A DNA stretch of 64,000 nucleotides from an uncultured Alphaproteobacteria bacterium (GTDB taxonomy: Bacteria; Pseudomonadota; Alphaproteobacteria; Rickettsiales; CAIJLX01), in contig CAIJLX010000051.1 in the NCBI GenBank assembly GCA_903821695.1, positions 1 through 64,000 on the forward strand, written 5' to 3'. The notes beneath the pieces are model-generated. The model had not been told where the DNA came from. It ran no database searches and saw only the letters and a program-made list of their open reading frames with translations. The position numbers were made by a program, and so were the translations under genes. Positions 43,238 through 61,373 of the stretch are shown in pieces (the first letter of the stretch is position 1; each line of letters opens with the position of its first letter).

Positions 43238-44260
43238 TTACAAAGCATTCTTCGAAAAAAGCCCCGGCAAACCAGCTGCGTCGCATATCCCGCGCTCCGT
43301 AATAAACCCCGTTACCAACCTGGCGGGGGTAATATCAAAGGCAGGGTTGGCAGCTTTTGTGCCAGCGGCATAGATGGCGCCCAGCACCTCATCCTGCCCA
43401 CGCTCCTCAATTTCGATGTGAGAAGCATCCGCCAAATCCCAGTCAATGGTCGTATAAGGCAGCGCCACATAAAATGGCACATGGTTATCTTTGGCTGCCA
43501 GCGCCTTCAAATAAGTGCCAATTTTATTACACACATCACCATTTCGAAGTGTCCGATCGGTGCCCACAATACAGAGATCAATCACCCCCTGTTGCATGAG
43601 TAACCCACCCGCATTATCGACAATCACCGTATTAGGCACCCCCGCCTGGCTCAATTCAAACGACGTCAGCGCACCTTGATTGCGTGGCCGCGTTTCATCA
43701 ACCCACACATGCACCGGAATGCCCTTCTCATGCACCTTATAAATCGGCGCTAACGCTGTTCCCCAATCCACACAAGCAAGCCACCCGGCATTGCAATGGG
43801 TTAGGATATTGAGTCGCTTTTTCTCAGCATAAATTTTTTCAAAAAGCTTCAAACCATGCGTGCCAATCGCCTCATGAATCGCCGCATCTTCATCGCAAAG
43901 TTCTTGCGCTTTTGCATATGCGGCTTCAATGCGCTGTTCAGGCTTTAATGGAGCCAACACTTCCATCATTTGATCCAGCGACCATTTCAAATTAATCGCC
44001 GTCGGCCGTGTTGCGAGCAATGTTTTATAGGCCGCTTGCAGGTCGATATTTTTCTCCAGCGCAAAGCATAAACCATATGCCGCCGTTGCCCCAATCAGCG
44101 GTGCCCCACGCACCCACATTTCTTTAATGGCGATGGCAACTTCCTCCATCGTTTTGAGCGTGACGAGCTTAATTTCACGCGGCAAAACACGCTGATCGAG
44201 AATCTCAATGCCGCCCTTCACCCGCTCAATCGAACGGCGATATTGTCCGTTGAGTTTCAT
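43238..44260 (-). CDS. mtnA: S-methyl-5-thioribose-1-phosphate isomerase
   Basis: ILDQRVLPREIKLVTLKTMEEVAIAIKEMWVRGAPLIGATAAYGL; LTHCNAGWLACVDWGTALAPIY; DETRPRNQGA. Confidence 0.97.
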   Translation of the reverse strand: MKLNGQYRRSIERVKGGIEILDQRVLPREIKLVTLKTMEEVAIAIKEMWVRGAPLIGATAAYGLCFALEKNIDLQAAYKTLLATRPTAINLKWSLDQMMEVLAPLKPEQRIEAAYAKAQELCDEDAAIHEAIGTHGLKLFEKIYAEKKRLNILTHCNAGWLACVDWGTALAPIYKVHEKGIPVHVWVDETRPRNQGALTSFELSQAGVPNTVIVDNAGGLLMQQGVIDLCIVGTDRTLRNGDVCNKIGTYLKALAAKDNHVPFYVALPYTTIDWDLADASHIEIEERGQDEVLGAIYAAGTKAANPAFDITPARLVTGFITERGICDAAGLPGLFSKNAL

Positions 44261-46068
44261 AATACGGAGGCAATATCATGAATAGTATTGCGCCCCAAAA
44301 TTAACTTCCGCGCAAACGCAATCGCCGCATTCTCTTTGGTGCCACGCTCCGCAGCATCCGCTATCGATTCCAAATCTTCCACATGCGCAAGACCTACGAT
44401 ACGGCGGATAATTTCTACGCCACAATAACCCAACGTATCCTGCCAGATCGTCGCCAATATTTTTTCCAATGCTTGTTTATTAATGTTAAGCGCGAGCGAA
44501 AAACTATCGCCGCTTTTACGCGCGAGGAATAATGCTGAAAATTCTTCTGCGAAAATATTCCAGGTATCCTTCACTTGCGCCAACAACCATTTTTTATATT
44601 CAGCATCCGAGTGCGAAAAATAACTGAGCAGTAAATTCGCGAGATACATGCCCACATCAAAGCCAATCGGCGCGAAGAAACCAAATTCTGGATCAATCAC
44701 CCGTGTTTCCTTTTCCGTCACCATGATCGAACCACTATGCAAATCCCCATGCGCTAATGCTTCTGCACGAGTAAGGAATGCATGTTTCAATTCCTGCGCG
44801 GCCAATTTAAGTGGCACATCCGTTGCCAAAGATTCCATGGTTTTATCAAGTGCTGGCGAATTCCATTTGTTCATTGGTGCATTGAAATAAGGCTCGCTGA
44901 ACACCAAATCTTCGGTGATTTTGCACATCGCCGTATTGCCCGCAAACTGCACCATTTTATTTTTCTTCTCAGCAGCAGAGAGATAAAAATCCGAGGTATA
45001 AAACAAATTCCGCGCCATGAATTGGCCGATATGTTTTGCGAGGTTCGGATAACGCGTTTTAGCAATCAATCCTTTGCGCAAAATAATATGCGGCGACAGA
45101 CATTCCATCACCGTCAATGCCAATTCCGCATCATGCAAATAAAGTGCCGGAACCAACTCCGGCGTATTCTTATTTTGCTCGACTAACGCCAGGTATTCAT
45201 AATGCGCACGCGACAACGGCAATGGCCAGCTTTCGCCTACCAAGCGCACATAAGGCAGGGCTTGTTTTACGCAGAGTGATTGCTTTGTGCCCTTCACGAT
45301 AAATACGAGGTTTAAATTGCCATCACCCACTTCGCGGATATTCCATTCTTTAGGATTTCCGCCCAAAAACTCCGCCAATTTTTTATGCTCGGCAAGATAG
45401 GCCGGAAGTGTATCCACATCCATTGCGCGGTAAGCAAGATAGGTAATCTCTGCAAAGGTTTTGGCTTCAGTATGCGGCGGTTTCGCAGTGCTGCTGTAAC
45501 GGTTCAGCCACACGGTTTTCCAACCTGCTTTTTTGGCAGCATCTAATTCCGCAACGGAATCAGAGAGGAATAAAATTTCCTGTGGCGCATAGCCGATTTG
45601 CTTTTGAATTTTTTGATACGAATCCGCTTCGAGTTTTCCGCCGATCGTCGTATCGAAATAGCCGGAGAATAGGTTATTCACGTCACCAGCCGCAGTATTC
45701 CCGAATAATAATTTCTGTGCAGCGATGGAGCCTGAGGAATAGACATACAACGTAAAACCAGTGGCTTTCCATTCTTTCAATTTGGCAAGCGCATCGGGAT
45801 AAATATCGGCGACCAATTCACCACTTTTATAGCCTTCCGCCCATACGATACCTTGCAGGGTTTTGAGCGCGGTTTCTTTTTTATCCTCGCGCATCCATTG
45901 CTCAAGTTTTTCGATGGGGTTTTCGCCAACAGCTTTAACTTCCGGGCTGTTTGCATGCTTGCGCACATAATCCGGCAGATGTTTCTCGGCATAGGGAAAC
46001 AGCACCTCTTTCACGAATGAAAGCGAGCTGGTGGTTCCTTCGATATCGGTAACAATGGCTTTAATCAT
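44257..46068 (-). CDS. Fusion: enolase-phosphatase E1 (MtnC) + methylthioribose kinase (MtnK)
   Basis: N-terminal ~215 aa: MIKAIVTDIEGTTSSLSFVKEVLFPYAEKHLPDYV...VYSSGS...FLSDSVAELDAAKKAGW (MtnC). C-terminal ~388 aa: REVGDGNLNLVFIVKG...ALAHGDLHSGSIMV...VIDPEFGFFAPIGFDVGMYLANL (MtnK). One uninterrupted ORF. Confidence 0.93.
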   Translation of the reverse strand: MIKAIVTDIEGTTSSLSFVKEVLFPYAEKHLPDYVRKHANSPEVKAVGENPIEKLEQWMREDKKETALKTLQGIVWAEGYKSGELVADIYPDALAKLKEWKATGFTLYVYSSGSIAAQKLLFGNTAAGDVNNLFSGYFDTTIGGKLEADSYQKIQKQIGYAPQEILFLSDSVAELDAAKKAGWKTVWLNRYSSTAKPPHTEAKTFAEITYLAYRAMDVDTLPAYLAEHKKLAEFLGGNPKEWNIREVGDGNLNLVFIVKGTKQSLCVKQALPYVRLVGESWPLPLSRAHYEYLALVEQNKNTPELVPALYLHDAELALTVMECLSPHIILRKGLIAKTRYPNLAKHIGQFMARNLFYTSDFYLSAAEKKNKMVQFAGNTAMCKITEDLVFSEPYFNAPMNKWNSPALDKTMESLATDVPLKLAAQELKHAFLTRAEALAHGDLHSGSIMVTEKETRVIDPEFGFFAPIGFDVGMYLANLLLSYFSHSDAEYKKWLLAQVKDTWNIFAEEFSALFLARKSGDSFSLALNINKQALEKILATIWQDTLGYCGVEIIRRIVGLAHVEDLESIADAAERGTKENAAIAFARKLILGRNTIHDIASVL

Positions 46069-49885: not shown

Positions 49886-51274
49886 CTAGAGCGAACGGCG
49901 AATTGCCCGGCCGGTTGTCACAAACGCATGGAATGGCAGTTTATCTAAATAGCGCAGCAGCAGGATGGAGGCGAAGAAGAACGTCACCAGTGTCGAGATA
50001 AAATAGCCGTAGCCATAAAATTCCAGACCTGCGCGCATCGAGATTAAGGTGAAGAGGCCGTTGGTGACCATGAACATGCATTGAATCCACATCGCTTGGC
50101 GGCGGCTATCGAAATAATTGAACATGATGGTGATGAACAGCATCAACACGTGGAAGAACGCGCCTAGTACACCGAAACGATACATCGCGATATGGATAAA
50201 GCGAATGCCCATCAGTTCTAGTATTTTATGCGCCAGCACGATGGATACGAAGCAGATAATGCCTTGCAGCACGATGATGTTGCGGGCACCCGACAGCACG
50301 CTTTCTTTGATCGCGCGTTGGTTTTCCAGAATGCGTTTAAACGGCGCGTGGTTCAAAATTTCATTATAGAAACGGTGGTATTTCTCGAAGAAATCCGTCT
50401 CCACGCTTAAAATAAACACGGCCATGGCGGGAATAATGGTGAGGTAGGCGAGGAACATCGCATTGCCATATTCGAAATACATCACCATTTTACTTTGCAG
50501 AGTCGTCGCTTCCGGCGCAAAGCACATCACGAGTTTGTCGATCCAGATACCGACCGCATAAAACAAACCACCGAGCGCTACGTCCCAATAACGGTGGAAA
50601 TATTTGATTACGTCGAAGGGTTCGACCACACGGTAGTTATATTCCGAGAACACTTGTGCGAGCAGAATGAAGAAAGTGATGCCAACGCCAACGTTAAAGC
50701 CAAGCAACATCCCTGCATCGCGGTAATCGCCTTTGAGCCAGATCGCGACGATAACGCCTACGGTCATGCCAATGGCGAAGGCACGGGTGATCATCCGGTA
50801 ATCTTTGAGTGCTGTTAAGAAGGCGCTGATCATCCAGATGGCGCCGACTAAGAAATAGTTCGAGAAGGCGAGCAATTTGAGCGACAGCGGCAGCTGCACA
50901 TAACCAAAATAATACCAGGCAACGAGCGGCAGCTGGATAATCATCAGCATCACATAGCTTGAAATCATCATACCGATCGAGCCGGTCACGTTTTTGCGGA
51001 AAATCGCATCGGCCAGATGTCGGGTCGCCACCATACTGAAGGGCGAGGCGAAAATGAGCGAGAAGGCGAAGTTATAAATCAGGATCACGTGGAAATCGAG
51101 GAAGTAGCGGAACGTATGGGTGCTTGAGCCATAAATCGAGATCGCGCCGATCGCGAGAATGGTGATCAGCCATGGGCCGGCAGTGACCATCGCGGAATGC
51201 AGGTGCGCTTGCACCAACCCCATCAAATCGTCTTTATCCATTAATCGCTTAAGCGTAAATCCAATGCCTGCCAT
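49886..51274 (-). CDS. pelG: Pel polysaccharide membrane transporter PelG
   Basis: MAGIGFTLKRLMDKDDLMGLVQAHLHSAMVTAGPWLITILAIGAI; multi-TM. Confidence 0.93.
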   Translation of the reverse strand: MAGIGFTLKRLMDKDDLMGLVQAHLHSAMVTAGPWLITILAIGAISIYGSSTHTFRYFLDFHVILIYNFAFSLIFASPFSMVATRHLADAIFRKNVTGSIGMMISSYVMLMIIQLPLVAWYYFGYVQLPLSLKLLAFSNYFLVGAIWMISAFLTALKDYRMITRAFAIGMTVGVIVAIWLKGDYRDAGMLLGFNVGVGITFFILLAQVFSEYNYRVVEPFDVIKYFHRYWDVALGGLFYAVGIWIDKLVMCFAPEATTLQSKMVMYFEYGNAMFLAYLTIIPAMAVFILSVETDFFEKYHRFYNEILNHAPFKRILENQRAIKESVLSGARNIIVLQGIICFVSIVLAHKILELMGIRFIHIAMYRFGVLGAFFHVLMLFITIMFNYFDSRRQAMWIQCMFMVTNGLFTLISMRAGLEFYGYGYFISTLVTFFFASILLLRYLDKLPFHAFVTTGRAIRRSL

Positions 51275-51278
51275 GATG

Positions 51279-52793
51279 TTATCCCATTACCTTTGCGCCG
51301 ATGAGTGATTGATAGAGATAGTGGTACGTGCGGTTATGCAGATTACGGTCATAATAACGGTGCACCCGTTCTTTGATCGCTTGTGAATAACGTTGGTGCT
51401 TCTCTTTATCGATCAGCAATTCGTAAATTTCTTCCGCCATTTCTTGCGGGTTTGAAATGCCGACAATCTCGCCGCCCTGCCCTAACATTGGCTCTTCAAG
51501 CTCCGTGCCACAAATCAATTCGCGGCAGTTTCCAACATCGGTCGCAACACATGGAATGCCCGCAGCTCCGGCTTCCAGAATCACCAAGGGCTGTGCTTCC
51601 GAAATGCTCGAAAGCGCCACAACATCAATCTCTGGCAAGAATTCATCGACCTTCACGCTGCCTTTAAATTGTACAGTGCTTTCGAGGCCTAATATTTTGA
51701 CCAATTCCTGGCACTCTTCCGCATAATCCGTGTCTTCATCAAGCGGGCCCATAATCCATGCACGCGCATTTGGCAGCATTTTTTTGAGCTCTGCACAGGA
51801 ACGGATAAAGGTTTTGGTATCTTTAATCTGCACCACACGCCCAATAAGCGCCACTGTTGGCGGGTGGATAGTGTTGCTGTGGCGAATTGCACCGAAACGG
51901 TTCAGGTTAATACCATTGGCGATGATCTGCATTTTTGCAGGGTCTGCACCATCTTCAATTTGCAAGGTTTGGTTTTCTTTGAACAATGTGATGATGCGGC
52001 TTGAGGCCTCATAGCATACGCGGGAATAGCTGATGAACATACCCAGCCAAAGTTCACGCAGACCACGATCAATCTTATCAATCGTCAAATGTTGCGAGAG
52101 AATATTTTGGCTTTCCAACCAATCGACCGATGCAATTTCAATGCGGCGTTCGTTGGTGTAAATGCCGTGTTCGGAAACAATCAGCGGATTGCCGGTTTGT
52201 AAACGCGCACGGGCGCCGAGTAGCCCCGCAAAACCAGTGCAAGTCGCGTGATATAATTTTGCTTTTGGCAATGGCGCAGAAAGAACGGAATAAAAACCGG
52301 TGATCAACGAACGGAACGACCAGAAATAATCGATGAAGGAATTACCTGGCAGTAACTCGTTATACACATTCACCATCGCGCTCCAGCCTTCCTGCGTATC
52401 GAGGAATTCGCGGATGTCGAAATTCTTATCTTCGCGATCAATGAAATCGATGATTTTTTTCAAATCAAACAATGTCGCGTTTTCCTGGCTGAAGATTTTA
52501 ATCTGTTCCGCCACTTTTTCGGCGATGGCTTTGCTGCCATGCTCGGAAACGTCTTTCTCGATTGGGCTATTGCGCAGGATCACCGTTTCGACATGCTTCA
52601 GATTCGCAGGGTATGTGTAACGCTGTTTATACTCTTCCTGCTCGGGCATGATGGAGACGATGCTGAAGGTAAAATCCTTCTGCGATTCGATCAAATCATG
52701 CACCCAGGTGGAAACACCGCCCATCACGTATGGGTAGCTACCTTCTACGATAATGCAGATATCAGTTTCGACTTTGCTAAATTTACGGCTCAT
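51279..52793 (-). CDS. pelF: Pel glycosyltransferase PelF (GT4)
   Basis: DICIIVEGSYPYVMGGVSTWVHDLI; ALIGRVVQIKDTKTFI; SSISEAQPLVILEAGAAGIPCVATDVGNCREL. Confidence 0.95.
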   Translation of the reverse strand: MSRKFSKVETDICIIVEGSYPYVMGGVSTWVHDLIESQKDFTFSIVSIMPEQEEYKQRYTYPANLKHVETVILRNSPIEKDVSEHGSKAIAEKVAEQIKIFSQENATLFDLKKIIDFIDREDKNFDIREFLDTQEGWSAMVNVYNELLPGNSFIDYFWSFRSLITGFYSVLSAPLPKAKLYHATCTGFAGLLGARARLQTGNPLIVSEHGIYTNERRIEIASVDWLESQNILSQHLTIDKIDRGLRELWLGMFISYSRVCYEASSRIITLFKENQTLQIEDGADPAKMQIIANGINLNRFGAIRHSNTIHPPTVALIGRVVQIKDTKTFIRSCAELKKMLPNARAWIMGPLDEDTDYAEECQELVKILGLESTVQFKGSVKVDEFLPEIDVVALSSISEAQPLVILEAGAAGIPCVATDVGNCRELICGTELEEPMLGQGGEIVGISNPQEMAEEIYELLIDKEKHQRYSQAIKERVHRYYDRNLHNRTYHYLYQSLIGAKVMG

Positions 52794-53920
52794 GCTGCCA
52801 CCTTTTCTACTGGACCACGGCCGGACCACAGCAAAATGCTTTCGCAAATCACATCCGGATATTTGCGCGATTGTAATACTTGCTCACAATTCATTCGGGC
52901 CTGACGACGCAAATCGCTATAACGTTTGAGGTGGAATAAGCACTCCGCATACAGCACCCAGATATCGAGTTTCAGCGTTTCGGAAGTGATAGCACTTTCA
53001 AACCAACGCACCGCCTCTTCGTATTTTTCTTGGCGCATTAGCAAGCGGCCAATCAAATAGAAAATGCGTTTGTCGTTCGGTTTAAAGCTTAAATAATCAC
53101 GATAGAATTTCATTGCAAGCAGGCGCGCTTCGCTTTCTTGCTCAGGTTCCAAAATGGTTGAGAACGCAAGGTCATCATAGACCGATGCAATCGCCAATAA
53201 CACTTCATAACGATCCGGATATTTCTGGCGCAACTTCTCGAGCTTCAACAATTGTGCGAAGAAATTGTTTTTGATTTTCGTAATTGCGGTTGCCGCCTGT
53301 ACGCGCACCACGTTGCTCGTATCTTCACGCAGTGCCATTTTGATTACCGAACCGAAATCCGGGTGGAAGAACTGTGTCATTTTCAGAATCGCCTCGCGCT
53401 TTTGCATTTCTGTCCCGCGCTTGATCACATCGACAAACGGGATAATGCTATAATTCATCCAGCTTTTATCGCGGCCATATTGCAGCGCTTCGGCGATTTC
53501 CTGCGGCTGGCTTTTCTTTTGTTCTGGGAAAATCGAATAATACCACTCTGTAAAGCTGGTGGCGTGGCCTTTGGAAATTTTGAATACAATCAGCAGTAAC
53601 ATCATACCCGCTGCTGCGAAGGGCCCGAGCACCGTGAGGAAGATCGAGAAGATAATACCGAAACGTGCCCCGATTTTGAGGCGTACCGTCGCAATCGTAT
53701 AGATATATGCCGCTAAGCAGCAGGCGATGTGGATAATGAGTGCCGCAAAGCCTGAATCTTCAAGCAATAACGATACGGAGAAAATTTCTGCGTATAAAAT
53801 CAGTGCCGCTAAAATGAACAGCGTAACCCGGCCAGCAGGCGACGCACGGAACCGCCGATGAATCTCATCGGCATCCATTAATCCTTCCGTGAGGGCGAGA
53901 TTGCGCTTTAAAAAGTTCAT
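52790..53920 (-). CDS. pelE: PelE (membrane + TPR)
   Basis: N-terminal TM segments, TPR-like C-terminus; position between pelD and pelF with ATGA overlaps. Confidence 0.85.
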   Translation of the reverse strand: MNFLKRNLALTEGLMDADEIHRRFRASPAGRVTLFILAALILYAEIFSVSLLLEDSGFAALIIHIACCLAAYIYTIATVRLKIGARFGIIFSIFLTVLGPFAAAGMMLLLIVFKISKGHATSFTEWYYSIFPEQKKSQPQEIAEALQYGRDKSWMNYSIIPFVDVIKRGTEMQKREAILKMTQFFHPDFGSVIKMALREDTSNVVRVQAATAITKIKNNFFAQLLKLEKLRQKYPDRYEVLLAIASVYDDLAFSTILEPEQESEARLLAMKFYRDYLSFKPNDKRIFYLIGRLLMRQEKYEEAVRWFESAITSETLKLDIWVLYAECLFHLKRYSDLRRQARMNCEQVLQSRKYPDVICESILLWSGRGPVEKVAA

Positions 53921-55341
53921 GCTGCCGCCTGACCTTGGAAGAGTGATTGAATGTTGAATTGCAGTTCAACACCAGCCAGCGCAGGCTCATTGTTTAAATT
54001 GATCTGACGCTGAATTTTCTGCACCACGATACTTGCATTATTAAGCGCTGTGTTTGGCAGAATCACCGTAAACACTGAGTGCGGCAATGCATTTTGCTCG
54101 GTCAGGCTTTCCTCAAACAACTGGTCAATTTTGCGTGTATGGCCAGAAATAATTTTACCAAGCGCACGTGCTGCTTCACGACGTGCCGGCTCCGCAATTT
54201 TTGAAGCGCCCACCATACGAATGCTAATGAGCGATGCATCAAAGCCCACGCGTTTCGCAAGTTCCGGCAGATATGCCGCCTGCTGGCGCAAGAAGCTGCC
54301 CGAAAGCACATTGCTATCAGGATTCAGCATGCTGTCGCGTTTCGCAATTTGATAACCAAGTGCACGTGCATAAGCCGCACCGACCCATTCGCAAAGCACT
54401 TTAAAGCTCTCAATGGTCGAGAAATTGAGCACCGAAAAGCCCATCGATTCGATTTTAAGCATACCGAATACGCGACCGCTCACGACATCATAGAGGCTTC
54501 CCGCCAATACGCCGTGGCCATCCAATTTGCGTTCATCTTCTTCATTTACTAAATTCAATACACGCCCTTTGGTCAACACTTCGCGGTATAATGTGCTGCT
54601 GCTATCATATTCGCGTGGATAGGTAGCATCTGCCGGCCAACCGAAACTGTTTTGCAATTCCAGGCGATCATTTTTAAACAGGAAAATCGAATAACGTTCT
54701 GCATTCAGCAACACGCTCACCAGATTTTCTACACCATCCAATACGCCATTCGGATCGCGCACTTCGATTGCACGCGCTGCATCATAAGCCGAAAATGCGG
54801 TGCGCAATTGACCAGCCACACGGAATTCCAAATTTTCTTTGATCAGACGAATATCATTATATTTTTCAGCAATGGTTTCTTCACGAACGCGGCTTTCGTA
54901 TAATTCTTCTGTCAGCCGTTGTTGGCGACGTACATGGCGCTGGCGCATTTCGCCCAGAATCAATGCTGCCATCAGCCACATAACGGGATTGATGCAAAGC
55001 TCATATAAATGGCTGAAGGAATCAAGGCCTTCGGTTGCATGTACCGGAATATGTGGGTTGCCGAGCAGCAACACGACTGAAGCAACGATTGCACTTAAAA
55101 AGCCTTCTTTCACGCCATATTGCACCGAAGTGAGGAGTACAATAATCCAGAATGGATGCGGGCTTACGCTCCAGAAACGGTCACCTTTAAAGACGAGGTC
55201 GATGAGAATCGCGACCACAAAAAAGATCCCGATCTCAAGCACCGCCGAAGGGCGGATGAGCCATGGGCGTTTCGGCTTATTGACCACTTGTAACTGTGTG
55301 GTTTCTGCCGAACGCGGTGTGGTGGTGGTGACTGCTAACAT
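53917..55341 (-). CDS. pelD: PelD (TM-GAF-degenerate GGDEF, c-di-GMP receptor)
   Basis: Four TM segments, GAF domain, degenerate GGDEF lacking the GGDEF motif, retained RxxD (GHTRKIDQ). Confidence 0.88.
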   Translation of the reverse strand: MLAVTTTTPRSAETTQLQVVNKPKRPWLIRPSAVLEIGIFFVVAILIDLVFKGDRFWSVSPHPFWIIVLLTSVQYGVKEGFLSAIVASVVLLLGNPHIPVHATEGLDSFSHLYELCINPVMWLMAALILGEMRQRHVRRQQRLTEELYESRVREETIAEKYNDIRLIKENLEFRVAGQLRTAFSAYDAARAIEVRDPNGVLDGVENLVSVLLNAERYSIFLFKNDRLELQNSFGWPADATYPREYDSSSTLYREVLTKGRVLNLVNEEDERKLDGHGVLAGSLYDVVSGRVFGMLKIESMGFSVLNFSTIESFKVLCEWVGAAYARALGYQIAKRDSMLNPDSNVLSGSFLRQQAAYLPELAKRVGFDASLISIRMVGASKIAEPARREAARALGKIISGHTRKIDQLFEESLTEQNALPHSVFTVILPNTALNNASIVVQKIQRQINLNNEPALAGVELQFNIQSLFQGQAAA

Positions 55342-55350
55342 ATTAAGCCC

Positions 55351-58300
55351 CTATAACTTCCATTTGAAATAACCGCCAACACGGGTTGAATCTGCGTCGG
55401 ATTGTTTAAACCCGATACTATGACTGAACCGTAATTGGAATTCTTTATTTAAGCCGACTTGCTGGATCCAGCGTCCACCGAGATATGGCCCGTTGCCGCC
55501 GAATCGATCATATGCATAACCACCGAACGCTTCCCAATAGGATGCTTCGATCAAATCGGTCGGGATTTCCTGGCGCCAACCGACCGTACCATAATGTACT
55601 TCGCGGGTAACGAGCGGGTAATAGCGATAATCCTGGCCGGATGGATCGGTGTTATGTTGGACATCCATCGGATATTCCGCATCCAACCCATATTCTGCAA
55701 ACAGACGTGGATCAATACGGCTGCCAACATAATAGAGTGGCAAGCGCATTGTGGCACCAACCGTTACTGAGCGATCAACATCTTCAACATCTTCCAAATT
55801 ATAGCGGTTATAGCCAACTGTAACTGACGGCGCGATATCTGGGCGAATGCGGAAGTTTTGCGAATAAGCGATACGGTCGCGGTTCACATAATCGAGCACA
55901 CCTTCAACGAAATCCCAGTTCGAGCGGTGATATTCAGCATTCACCGTAATATCGCCACGCATATAACGTTTGAGATATTCGATGCCCGCACCTACGGTTT
56001 TCATATTAAAGAAGCCAGACGCCTTCAGCTGATCACCATTATCCAATTCATGACGCAGATAAACTTCCTGACGTACACGGAGCTCATTGGTATCTTCAAC
56101 AGCACCCGTTTCACCGCGGCGCACACCTTCGGCCATCACATAGTTATGATCCGCTACAATGCCCATCACGTTATTCTGATTCGCACGAACTTCACCGCTA
56201 AGCTGGCCGAGAATCTGCGTGTCATCATCAAGCAGCTGAATCTCGCCATCAACCTTCATAAAGCCACGGCGTGATTCTTGAATGCGATTGCGCAGACGTG
56301 CTGCATCTTCATTGGTTGGAGCAAGCACTAACACTTCGTTTACATGCCCCAGTGCTTGCGGTGTATTGCCCATATACCACTCTACGCTTGAAAGCGCGGC
56401 AAGCACCTGCGGATTATTTGGATAACGCGCATTGATAGCCTGCAGGCGATCGCGTGAGCGGGCTTGGTGACCGGTTTCGAGATCCAATTGTGCATGTAGC
56501 AATTCCAGGCGAATTTCACCCTCTTGGCTCACCTGTTCAATGGTTTGCACCGGTATTTGTTTTTCTTCCGGAAGCACAGCCGTAATGGTGAAGGTTTTGT
56601 CTTTGCTCTCCGCGAAATTATTGCTCAAGCGCATACCGCGATCCGCCACCAGCACGATCGAGTCATAGCTGGTCGAGGTCAGCTGTATCCAAGCTGGCAT
56701 TTCTTTGCCGAGCGTACGCAGCAATGGTTGTTTTGAAGCTTCGCCCGTAAATTGAATCACCATTTCGTTTGGCAATTGGGTGCCACGCACTTTGAGCACA
56801 TGCTGGCGCGGTAATGTGAAGCTGCTCATCTCTGCCGCCATCGGAGTGATCGTCATTTTCTGCACCGTGCGCACATTGTTCTGCGCGATGGTATGGAAGA
56901 ATTCACGCGCAGCGTCATATTGCTTGTTGGTCAGCAACAACAACACATAATCGGCCTGCAAATTCTTATCGTCCGGATTTTTTTCAATCACTTTTGCCAT
57001 CATCGCTTGTGCTTCCGGATAACTGCCCAAATGGAACAAGGATTTGGCGGTAATCAATTCCGCATCTCTGGTTTGTGGCGTCACCATTTTCGCGCCAACC
57101 AATGCACGTTGGTAATAAGGGGTCGCATCCGTTTTGTGGCCCTGACGGGTCAAAATATCCGCCATATCATAGAAAGTGCGGAAATCATTGCCGCCTTTGG
57201 CGTGATATTTTTTAAACACTTCTGCTGCTTGCGTATAATTCGCACGGTTATAGAGCATAATGCCATAATCACGCAGCAAATTGGCATCATCCGGGCGCAG
57301 GCTAACTAATTTCTCGAGCACTTTATCGCCCAATGCCGGGTAATTATTACCAAGCGCCACATTGCGCAAGGTTTCAAGACGTTTTGGATCCTGCGTGTTG
57401 TTAAACATACGGGTTAAATCCGCTTCCGTCGCTGCATTGCCAAGCACGGAAAGAGTTTCGAGATAAATCTCATCTTCCGCCTGGCCACGTTTATCGGCCG
57501 GAATATTCTCGATCAGGCGCAGAATCTGGTGATAGCCACCGCTCGCATAAAGCAGTTTCATCCATTCAATACGCTCTTGTGCTGGTGCATTGACTGCACG
57601 GCGAGCCATCCAATCCAATTTATCTTCTTCCGGACGAGTGCCCCAGAGATACATTAATTGCTCGAGATCTTTATTGCCTGGGTGCGCGGTGTTCGAAAGC
57701 TCAACGAATAATGCTGCCGCATCTTTTTTGTCGCCTGCGGCCAAAGAATCATATGCAAAGCGGCGTTTCTCGGAATTTGGAGCGCCTGGTCGTGTCGCTT
57801 GTGCTTTTTCGAATGCGCGCAGTTCAGCCATTTTACCCTGTTTACGCAGCATGGCGGTATAGAAATAGCTCCATTTGCTGGTCGGGTTCGCAAGCGCTTT
57901 TTCTTTAATCATCGGCGTATAATCATCCGCTGCATTATAGGTTACCAATTGCTGGATAACCGCAATTTGGCGCTCTTCGGGCACATTTGGCTGAGCCAAT
58001 TCTGCTTTGAGCAGCACAATCATTTCCGGCCAATATTTGGGTTCATTCGGCGCTACCGCATAGAGCAGCGAGCTATACAGCTGCGGATCCATCGCGAAGC
58101 CGTTGTCTTTCAACTCTTTGATATGCTCAAATGCTTCCACTTGCTGGCCATTATTAATCAGCGCCGTCGCATAAAGGAATTGGTCATCATCCTTCGCCGT
58201 GCGCCAATAGAGACGTTTTGCAGCATAAGCCGCAATCGCAGGGTGTTTATAATCATTCGAGATATAGTAAACATCGCGCAATAACGCAGGCGATACAACA

Positions 58301-59775
58301 TCATCCGCATGCATATTAAGCCACTGAATAACTTCCTTATCTTTACCCGCAGCCGATGCCATTTTGAGCCATGCAATATCCACCATCAACGATGGACGAG
58401 TAACACGGAAACCTTCGAATATTTTGAGGCCTTCTTCGGTCACTTTATGTTGCAACATCAACCATGTCAGCGCGCCGAGATCGTTATCTTCCACTTGTGT
58501 ATAAGGGCGCAGGCTAAACAAGAAATCGCGTGATAAATCGACCATACCCGCACGCATCGTTGCCTTGCTCAGGGCCACCGTTTCAAATACTTGAATCTTT
58601 GGTGTTTTATTCAATTGGCTTTGTGCTTTTGCTTGCGCATCTGACTCACGCAATGCGAGCGCAAAAATAGCATCAAGTGCTGGCCATTGCGCCAATTTGG
58701 TTGGCCCAACTGCCGTGCGCAATGCTTTAATTGGATCGGTTTGCTGCTCATCTTGATAGAATTCAGTCAACTGGATGAAGCGGAATTCCGGCAATTTATC
58801 GACATCGCCAGGACCAGTTAGCGCCTGAATCAGCGGAATATTACGCTGACGGATTGCGACATCCAGGAACAGTTCCTGCAGGCTCTCTGGCAAACGTGAT
58901 GCATTATATAAATTCACCATCCGCTCATAGGCCCTACGCTCCTGCCCGCTCGCAATTTCGGCACGAACGAGAGCAATGGTAATGTCCGGATCTGTCGTGA
59001 AATCACGATAAGGCGCAAGCAGCGCGAGGCTTAAATCTGGGCGACGGCTGGAGTAGAAAATATTGGACAAATGCAACACGGTCTGGCGTCTTACTTTTTC
59101 GTTTTGACCTGCAAGCCACGTGCTCGCAATCGCAAATGCATCATCCTGGCGGCCTAATTGTGAAAGCGCGATCACCCAGCTTTCCATCGCTTCCTGGTTC
59201 ATTGCCTTTGGATTGCGCTGGAACAAAGTTTTCATCACATTCGCCGCATCTTCATTGCGGTTCATTTGGCGATAAATAAACGCAAGCTGCGTATAGTTTT
59301 CCGTTTTATCAGGCTCTGATTGCAGCAATTTTTCCAGCACCGCGATCTGCTTGTTATAATCTTGGTTATAGTTATAAATATCCGAAAGTTTTTTGAGCTT
59401 TTCTGGGTCTGCGCGCAGCGTGTTCATTTTTTCGAGCACCCGTGCATAATCCGCCTGACGACCGGCATATTGATAGAGTGTTGAAATTCGGTCCAGCGCA
59501 CGAATATCGTCCGGATTTTTTTGCAAATACGCTTCGAGTAGTGAGATCGCGCGGTTTAACTCATTGTTCTCAAGATAAATGCGCACCAATGGGAATACGA
59601 TTTCCGGCGAAAGATTACCCACCGTCAGCTGGGTTTCATAATCGGCGCGCGATTCGATAAGACCCGAACCGTCGACTTTCATCATCGCGATGCCGGTTTT
59701 GGTCGGCAGCAAATAACTGGCGGATAAAATACCCGCAACAATCAACCCCAAGATAATAATGTACGTGAGACGCAT
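55351..59775 (-). CDS. pelB: PelB-like TPR + outer-membrane beta-barrel protein (1474 aa)
   Basis: N-terminal TM anchor, many TPRs, C-terminal barrel ending in ...RVGGYFKWKL; directly upstream of pelD. Confidence 0.88.
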   Translation of the reverse strand: MRLTYIIILGLIVAGILSASYLLPTKTGIAMMKVDGSGLIESRADYETQLTVGNLSPEIVFPLVRIYLENNELNRAISLLEAYLQKNPDDIRALDRISTLYQYAGRQADYARVLEKMNTLRADPEKLKKLSDIYNYNQDYNKQIAVLEKLLQSEPDKTENYTQLAFIYRQMNRNEDAANVMKTLFQRNPKAMNQEAMESWVIALSQLGRQDDAFAIASTWLAGQNEKVRRQTVLHLSNIFYSSRRPDLSLALLAPYRDFTTDPDITIALVRAEIASGQERRAYERMVNLYNASRLPESLQELFLDVAIRQRNIPLIQALTGPGDVDKLPEFRFIQLTEFYQDEQQTDPIKALRTAVGPTKLAQWPALDAIFALALRESDAQAKAQSQLNKTPKIQVFETVALSKATMRAGMVDLSRDFLFSLRPYTQVEDNDLGALTWLMLQHKVTEEGLKIFEGFRVTRPSLMVDIAWLKMASAAGKDKEVIQWLNMHADDVVSPALLRDVYYISNDYKHPAIAAYAAKRLYWRTAKDDDQFLYATALINNGQQVEAFEHIKELKDNGFAMDPQLYSSLLYAVAPNEPKYWPEMIVLLKAELAQPNVPEERQIAVIQQLVTYNAADDYTPMIKEKALANPTSKWSYFYTAMLRKQGKMAELRAFEKAQATRPGAPNSEKRRFAYDSLAAGDKKDAAALFVELSNTAHPGNKDLEQLMYLWGTRPEEDKLDWMARRAVNAPAQERIEWMKLLYASGGYHQILRLIENIPADKRGQAEDEIYLETLSVLGNAATEADLTRMFNNTQDPKRLETLRNVALGNNYPALGDKVLEKLVSLRPDDANLLRDYGIMLYNRANYTQAAEVFKKYHAKGGNDFRTFYDMADILTRQGHKTDATPYYQRALVGAKMVTPQTRDAELITAKSLFHLGSYPEAQAMMAKVIEKNPDDKNLQADYVLLLLTNKQYDAAREFFHTIAQNNVRTVQKMTITPMAAEMSSFTLPRQHVLKVRGTQLPNEMVIQFTGEASKQPLLRTLGKEMPAWIQLTSTSYDSIVLVADRGMRLSNNFAESKDKTFTITAVLPEEKQIPVQTIEQVSQEGEIRLELLHAQLDLETGHQARSRDRLQAINARYPNNPQVLAALSSVEWYMGNTPQALGHVNEVLVLAPTNEDAARLRNRIQESRRGFMKVDGEIQLLDDDTQILGQLSGEVRANQNNVMGIVADHNYVMAEGVRRGETGAVEDTNELRVRQEVYLRHELDNGDQLKASGFFNMKTVGAGIEYLKRYMRGDITVNAEYHRSNWDFVEGVLDYVNRDRIAYSQNFRIRPDIAPSVTVGYNRYNLEDVEDVDRSVTVGATMRLPLYYVGSRIDPRLFAEYGLDAEYPMDVQHNTDPSGQDYRYYPLVTREVHYGTVGWRQEIPTDLIEASYWEAFGGYAYDRFGGNGPYLGGRWIQQVGLNKEFQLRFSHSIGFKQSDADSTRVGGYFKWKL

Positions 59776-59901
59776 TTAAATACTAAAAATCCGATAGTTA
59801 AAAAATTAACATCAATCGTTAATGAAAAACAAATAGTGCTGTGGATAATTGATAAATGTTTAGAGGTTTTTTAACCTTTTTGCAAGTATTTAACTGCTTT
59901 G

Positions 59902-60717
59902 TTACCTCACATGCACCAAGGTTCTGTTGGAAATGTAGGGCAACATGTTGTTCTCAAACATTTTTTTAGTTAACATTTCTTCTGTCTTTACATCCGTCAG
60001 ATCCCAATATTCCAGACCCAATACACCCACTGCTGGCGCTTTTGCCTTCGCTTTATATAAATAATTGAGGGCATAATCCTGCTCCTCCTTACTTCTTAAT
60101 ATATGTTTTTGCTGGGCTGGATCGAAGTTAGTAAACGTACTTTCGGCCAATACATAGTTTAGCATCGGCGCGGTTTCTTCTAACACATGGTAGCCTCGGT
60201 TCTGGATAAGAAGCAAATGCGGGTATGCTTCCCGAATGGCCTTTACCAGCTGCACCGCTGCTTTTTCCATGCCTGGCTTTTGCTCTTCCAGAGCCACCGG
60301 GCTATCTAACGTATCAAACATTAATCCTGCAAAACCTCGTTGTATCAACGGTGGAATTACTTCTTCTAATAACATTTTCTGCCAAAGCGGGTTGCGGATA
60401 TCAACCACATAACTGCCCGGCCAATGTGGGTTTTCCTGTAGCAGTAGCCCTTCTGCTTTTGCATGCTGATACCACGGGTCGTTCACTGTAATTTCGCCCA
60501 AGCTCACATAACCCACCACCTGCGTATCGTTTTTGATCAGTCTTTTCAGGCTAAAGGGATATAGCCGGTCTAGCACCACCAACTTATAGGATGTAAAAAC
60601 CTTCGGTTTTGCGGTATCACCATAATACACCGCCCAGCCAGTCGGTTTTTGGCAGGACGTTGTAAAAACCAGCAGGACGGCCCACAATAACCCATTGATA
60701 TATAAACGAAAGTTCAT
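59902..60717 (-). CDS. PelA-like GH114 (endo-alpha-1,4-polygalactosaminidase-type) domain protein, no deacetylase
   Basis: Lipoprotein-like N-terminus (FTTSCQKP), TGWAVYYGD...YKLVVLDRLYP...VVGYVSLGEI...GFAGLMFDTLDS; 271 aa only. Confidence 0.85.
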   Translation of the reverse strand: MNFRLYINGLLWAVLLVFTTSCQKPTGWAVYYGDTAKPKVFTSYKLVVLDRLYPFSLKRLIKNDTQVVGYVSLGEITVNDPWYQHAKAEGLLLQENPHWPGSYVVDIRNPLWQKMLLEEVIPPLIQRGFAGLMFDTLDSPVALEEQKPGMEKAAVQLVKAIREAYPHLLLIQNRGYHVLEETAPMLNYVLAESTFTNFDPAQQKHILRSKEEQDYALNYLYKAKAKAPAVGVLGLEYWDLTDVKTEEMLTKKMFENNMLPYISNRTLVHVR

Positions 60718-60719
60718 CT

Positions 60720-61373
60720 ATGAAGCATATCATTACTTTCATCATTTTTACAGGGGTTTTACTGTTCCTTTTGTGGCGCGCCTTCCCCGAGGTCGAAATC
60801 ACGCAAAACGACATGGGCACCATCGTCCAATTGCTATTAGTCGGCAGCATGTTGAGCGGCTCGGTGCTGCTACTTTTCCGCCAAAACTTAGGCAAAGGCT
60901 TTCATTACGCCGTGATCTGGCTCACCTTGGGCTTCGCCTGCGTTGTCTTCTATAGCGGCAAAAACGTGATCCTCGCGAGCCTCCTTCCCGGTCATGCCAC
61001 TCAAGGCGAAACCATTACCATCCGCGCCGCCACTGATGGCCATTTTTACCTGGTCGCCGAGGTCAACGGCAAACCCATCCGCTTCATGATTGATACCGGC
61101 GCCTCAACTCTCTTTATTCCCCTACGCACCGCGCAAAGACTGGGCGTTTCGCTCGAAGACCTCGCCTATACCCAAAGCTTCCAAACTGCCAACGGCCAAA
61201 CCTATGGCGCGCCCACTACTTTGAGCACCGTCAAAATCGGCAGCCATGTATTCACTGATGTCCCGGCCTATATCAACCAAGGCGAATCCCTCACCCCACT
61301 CATGGGCATACGCTTCCTAGATAGAGCTAAGTCCTTGGAAATCAAAGGAGATGAGCTGATTATACATTTTTAA
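60720..61373 (+). CDS. Retropepsin-like aspartic protease (TIGR02281 type)
   Basis: RFMIDTGASTLFIPLRTAQRLGV; N-terminal TM segments. Confidence 0.88.
   Translation: MKHIITFIIFTGVLLFLLWRAFPEVEITQNDMGTIVQLLLVGSMLSGSVLLLFRQNLGKGFHYAVIWLTLGFACVVFYSGKNVILASLLPGHATQGETITIRAATDGHFYLVAEVNGKPIRFMIDTGASTLFIPLRTAQRLGVSLEDLAYTQSFQTANGQTYGAPTTLSTVKIGSHVFTDVPAYINQGESLTPLMGIRFLDRAKSLEIKGDELIIHF

Follow-up and report, generated by a model that had tools for sequence, protein, structure and literature searches.

The window analyzed here is a stretch of 64,000 nucleotides (bases 1-64000 of the 82,962-base contig C51) within a 2.11-Mb draft assembly of 111 contigs, for which completeness is given as 100% and contamination as 0.24%. 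On the minus strand, from position 60717 to 49886, we found six intact ORFs in the order pelA(hydrolase)-pelB-pelD-pelE-pelF-pelG (Table 1), the gene order proposed in the original prediction, which was made from the sequence alone. PelF scores 477 bits against the NF038011 equivalog model (cut-off 100), and PelG, the sole copy in the genome, scores 394 bits against PF16933. From pelB to pelG, neighboring genes are at most 9 bp apart or overlap by 4 bp, as is the case for pelD and pelE and, with the likelier pelF start (ATG at 52793), for pelE and pelF. The spacing between pelB and pelD is 9 bp (predicted as 10 bp) and therefore leaves no space for a pelC gene, as had been claimed, and the gap between pelA and pelB is too small for a lost domain. 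PelD retains the RxxD c-di-GMP I-site motif as RKID, and our alignment has RxxD in all complete PelD homologues of the order; a phmmer search against solved PelD structures gave no sequence match, and the identity of PelD comes from its position, its relatives and this motif. The genome encodes four GGDEF proteins.

Table 1. Features of the pel operon in the window.
Feature	Coordinates	Strand	Description
pelA_H	59902..60717	-	271-aa lipoprotein with endo-alpha-1,4-N-acetylgalactosaminidase domain (Pfam GH114; nearest GH166 PelA hydrolase); lipobox FTTSC, Cys22; D135 and E192 catalytic
pelA-pelB gap	59776..59901	-	126 bp, AT-rich; occupied by the CE21 gene pelA_DA in relatives L021-L023, L025, L028 and L032; no remnant here
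pelB	55351..59775	-	1474-aa exporter; TPR families; 23-29% identity to relatives' PelB over most of its length
pelD	53917..55341	-	membrane protein with GAF and degenerate GGDEF region; GAF_3 9e-9; 35-40% identity to relatives' PelD
pelE	52790..53920	-	membrane and TPR protein; TPR families; homologous to the pelE position in all relatives
pelF	51279..52793	-	GT4 glycosyltransferase (polymerase); NF038011 PelF equivalog 6e-143; PF11997 1.7e-78
pelG	49886..51274	-	inner-membrane exporter; PF16933 1.7e-117

Immediately 5' of pelA, most relatives (L021, L022, L025, L027, L032, L099, and L101) carry a gene for a GalE-like sugar-nucleotide epimerase. The window has none at this position, which is taken instead by a divergent retropepsin-like gene (60720-61373). 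Elsewhere in the window, a single 603-aa ORF (44257-46068, minus strand) encodes an acireductone synthase, MtnC (residues 2-196, TIGR01691), fused to a methylthioribose kinase, MtnK (residues 213-602, TIGR01767), within a methionine-salvage cluster that also holds MtnA-like, MtnD-like, and MtnB ORFs. We know of no described example of an MtnC-MtnK fusion. Among the papers covered by our literature search, none dealt with Pel in Rickettsiales, the order to which this genome belongs.

The hydrolase encoded by the first gene, PelA_H, matches PF03537 in a Pfam search (2e-15), and phmmer against solved structures gave PelA as the best match (5tcb, 2e-14; 9cgy, 9e-14). When its AlphaFold2 (AF2) model (pLDDT 93) was compared with solved structures using Foldseek, 5tcb ranked first (E 1e-19, TM 0.80), followed by GH191, with the fungal GH114 enzyme Ega3 much lower. 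Judged by this ranking of the predicted fold, the nearest structural relative of PelA_H is the PelA hydrolase (GH166), the family founded by the P. aeruginosa enzyme (PMC12054363). The catalytic Asp and Glu are kept in every aligned homologue. In relatives from the same order, a ~300-aa hydrolase gene is accompanied by a gene for a ~780-aa (770-800) CE21 deacetylase, which sits between the hydrolase gene and pelB. We regard this as a PelA split into two genes because the 770-800-aa protein matches PelA 9cgy across its non-hydrolase part (1.7e-48), which has been characterized as the founding CE21 deacetylase (PMC12022489). Split hydrolase and deacetylase genes are also present in Magnetococcales and in many alphaproteobacterial and acidobacterial operons. 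The original prediction had described a PelA of 271 aa with only a GH114-like domain: the hydrolase-only content is borne out by PF03537 and the 5tcb fold, but a truncated or reduced PelA is ruled out, since stand-alone hydrolase and deacetylase genes are usual in this lineage and in these other groups. Truncation through assembly error is excluded as well: the hydrolase-only layout recurs in genomes of another family that were assembled independently.

To search whole genomes for the deacetylase, we used a profile of the relatives' deacetylase protein (A1). This profile found nothing in the whole genome of the window, even at E 10, which excludes an unlinked CE21 gene and agrees with the predicted absence of a PelA-type deacetylase from both operon and genome. 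PelG is present in 30 of the 344 genomes of the order. Fourteen of these 30 have the deacetylase, and it is absent from the window's genome and from all 14 pel genomes of one family, f29, which span several genera. The 30th (G469) was dropped from the deacetylase-less set, as its operon runs off the contig in pelB and its deacetylase state is unreadable; outside f29 and the window, the deacetylase is present in 14 out of 15 pel genomes. In two of the 14 deacetylase-positive genomes, A1 located the gene on another contig. Outside the order, the hydrolase-only layout was found in three cultured species, Microvirga calopogonii, Paracraurococcus sp. LOR1-02, and Caldimonas tepidiphila, which encode the hydrolase together with pelB, D, E, F, and G and have no CE21 match genome-wide, in a search whose controls gave E-values below 1e-100.

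For PelC, we built a profile (A2) from operons of the phylum, whose canonical member matches PelC 9h80 and 5t10. No PelC was found in the window's genome or in 18 others of the order (0/19), and all six control genomes were positive (E<=4e-50), one of which (G090) had contributed to the profile. The claim that PelC is encoded nowhere else thus extends from the window to the 2.1-Mb genome, and an unlinked copy was discarded as a candidate. Within f29, the genome-wide PelC search covered 5 of the 14 genomes. Of 76 surveyed pel loci that have both PelB and PelD, PelC was present in 20, and 47 had neither a PelC match nor 250 bp of space for it (raw counts that ignore relatedness). Pel operons without PelC are therefore common, despite the description of PelC as a hallmark of Gram-negative Pel and as essential in P. 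aeruginosa (PMC12141448), and its absence does not set this operon apart. What is unusual is the genome-wide absence of the deacetylase, and neither the lack of PelC nor the stand-alone hydrolase. We dropped the idea that PelC loss and deacetylase loss are strictly coupled, as their association across the survey was not significant (20/2 versus 30/9, Fisher p 0.30). Two PelC-bearing loci scored as deacetylase-less (L080 and L083) are doubtful, with the upstream part of pelB missing beside the barrel gene, and one PelC-less row (Minwuia, L115) has a deacetylase elsewhere in the genome.

Several loci have arrangements of their own. The pel locus of L024 (G030) is broken up, with pelD-E-F-G on one strand and the hydrolase and deacetylase on the other, and it encodes an additional, distant GH114 protein (682 aa). 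In Pseudovibrio, Methylobacterium, Hyphomicrobium, and related genomes (L151, L153, L167, L170, L176, and L177), the pel-like cluster is more divergent: its PelD, PelE, and PelG are distant, its PelB is short (~530 aa or smaller), a CE21 protein is present, and in some cases GH114 proteins are encoded on the opposite strand. In the Nitrospinota loci L111 and L136, three ORFs share the PelB match and the 3' end holds a distant GH114 protein, and four gammaproteobacterial loci (L144, L146, L149, and L157) have two tandem PelC-like genes between pelB and pelD.

PelB has an N-terminal membrane anchor followed by a TPR scaffold; a beta domain (about residues 985-1067) is inserted ahead of further TPRs (about 1079-1167), and the C-terminal part forms a beta-barrel (about 1172-1474). 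The AF2 model of residues 880-1474 (pLDDT 86) shows TPRs, the inserted beta domain, TPRs, and the barrel, and among solved structures Foldseek ranks PelB from the PelBC complex 9h80 first (E 6e-16). A full TPR and barrel exporter in a genome without PelC supports the earlier suggestion that this PelB may not need PelC. We considered whether the inserted beta domain could stand in for PelC within PelB itself and ruled this out, because the domain also occurs in the barrels of PelC-bearing Azospirillum and is missing in PelC-less Acidobacteria (alignment A5). Deacetylase-less lineages showed no clear difference in PelB net charge, and the PelA-docking TPRs of their PelB gave no clear local signal of relaxation.

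The hydrolases do differ with the presence of the deacetylase. A lipobox Cys (e.g. FTTSC, CLAGC, AASAC) closes the signal peptide in all seven readable deacetylase-less hydrolases of the order (window, L026, L027, L029, L034, L099, and L101; L099 is included because the tree places it inside the f29 clade) and in none of the seven readable hydrolases that have a deacetylase partner. The lipobox was not seen in the hydrolases of the three deacetylase-less species outside the order. The residue following the Cys is never Asp. In E. coli, lipoproteins without Asp after the Cys go to the outer membrane; by this rule, PelA_H would be sorted there. Because in P. aeruginosa PelB is bound by full-length PelA and not by the isolated hydrolase domain (PMC12022489), lipidation of PelA_H could replace the lost docking partner, standing in for deacetylase-mediated docking. 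The PelA hydrolase cleaves acetylated Pel better (PMC12022489).

We asked whether the deacetylase was lost once or twice using two trees, one of PelD-G and one of PelB with PelD-G, leaving out canonical PelD-G for their long branches. In both trees, the window fell outside the clade comprising f29 and most of the deacetylase-bearing families (99/99 and 100/100), and grouping all deacetylase-less rows into one clade was disfavored (AU p 0.02). The shared derived traits, i.e. deacetylase absence and the lipobox, instead argue for a single event. In the Pel tree, the window lineage sits on a long branch, which is compatible with relaxed constraint.

On balance, and with modest confidence, the sequence evidence leads us to favor a complete, probably working Pel-type operon without deacetylase or PelC that is controlled by c-di-GMP and exports a fully N-acetylated polymer through PelB alone, with its hydrolase tethered to the outer membrane. 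By homology, PelF would polymerize GalNAc under c-di-GMP control through PelD, in which the RxxD motif is seen, and PelD, PelE, and PelG would move the chain over the inner membrane. PelB would then use its TPR scaffold and beta-barrel to pass the polymer through the outer membrane, with no PelC ring involved. Given that CE21 is missing genome-wide, the exported chain is most likely uncharged alpha-1,4-GalNAc that is fully N-acetylated. The hydrolase, elsewhere a domain or neighbor of the PelB-docking deacetylase and here a lipoprotein, is probably held on the periplasmic side of the outer membrane and may trim or clear the polymer there. The need for deacetylation may have vanished with an earlier loss of PelC, which has been described as a negatively charged funnel for cationic Pel.

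A different possibility, which we regard as the less probable one, is that an enzyme from another family (CE4, CE18, or unknown), encoded away from the operon, still deacetylates the polymer. Relatives G011 and G034 have unlinked CE21 genes, as does Minwuia, and our genome-wide searches, which covered CE21 and CE4, found one CE4 (PF01522) protein in the window's genome (C99:7989-8360, beginning MPCNKAVFILSLDCEGKWG). However, this protein has no signal peptide, and its gene is flanked by acyltransferase and GNAT-like genes in a different polysaccharide cluster, which makes it an unlikely periplasmic Pel deacetylase; moreover, neither CE21 nor CE4 is present in four of the five f29 genomes tested. 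That the deacetylase gene is missing only through assembly or binning gaps seems very improbable, even in a draft of 111 contigs: pelA_H and pelB lie side by side on a single 83-kb contig, 126 bp apart, in a genome given as complete, and the absence is replicated in independently assembled genomes, one of which (G057) has just nine contigs. Its absence from all 14 f29 pel genomes likewise argues against an assembly gap.

The operon could also be a decaying remnant that, having lost deacetylase and PelC, exports no polymer. Export through the PelC channel is said to require deacetylation (PMC12022489), and a P. aeruginosa deacetylase point mutant has no extracellular Pel (PMC10269871). As P. 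aeruginosa needs both functions (PMC10269871; PMC12141448), an operon lacking both might be inactive, and the long branch of the window lineage fits such decay. Against this, all pel ORFs are intact with their catalytic and regulatory residues retained, the hydrolase-only layout is kept in f29 and in the three cultured species, and the new lipobox suggests adaptation rather than decay. The main counterargument is that a whole family, f29, retains the operon without deacetylase (14/14) and without PelC (5/5 searched), and we therefore consider inactivity unlikely.

More tentatively than for the window itself, we propose that a working, deacetylase-less operon of this kind represents a stable and recurrent Gram-negative class of Pel, in which neutral, fully acetylated poly-alpha-1,4-GalNAc would pass through PelB alone and a lipid-tethered hydrolase would replace deacetylase-mediated docking; neither deacetylation nor the PelC ring would then be intrinsically needed for Pel export. 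In existing models, deacetylation by PelA is needed to push the cationic polymer through the negatively charged PelC funnel. Family f29, in which all pel genomes lack the deacetylase and all searched ones lack PelC, would allow the essential steps of Pel export to be told apart directly from the pseudomonad-specific ones. If our proposal is true, pel operons cannot be presumed to yield a cationic, DNA-binding matrix. The three cultured carriers of the hydrolase-only layout put the polymer chemistry within reach.

The operon shares with P. aeruginosa pelABCDEFG the order of pelB, D, E, F, and G, the hydrolase fold and catalytic residues, and the RxxD site of PelD. It differs in that P. aeruginosa PelA is a single ~950-aa protein of hydrolase and CE21 deacetylase and PelC is present, whereas the window has a hydrolase-only lipoprotein and neither deacetylase nor PelC. 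Closer in layout are the split-PelA operons of relatives and Magnetococcales (L021, L075, and L078), in which a ~300-aa hydrolase gene likewise comes first, followed by pelB, D, E, F, and G, but in these a ~780-aa CE21 gene lies between the hydrolase gene and pelB, the hydrolases lack a lipobox, and the magnetococcal operons also carry PelC. Bacillus cereus pelDEA(DA)FG (PMC7112168) resembles the window in having hydrolase and deacetylase as separate genes and no PelC. In this Gram-positive species without an outer membrane, the deacetylase is kept and the hydrolase is accessory, which is the reverse of what we find in the window.
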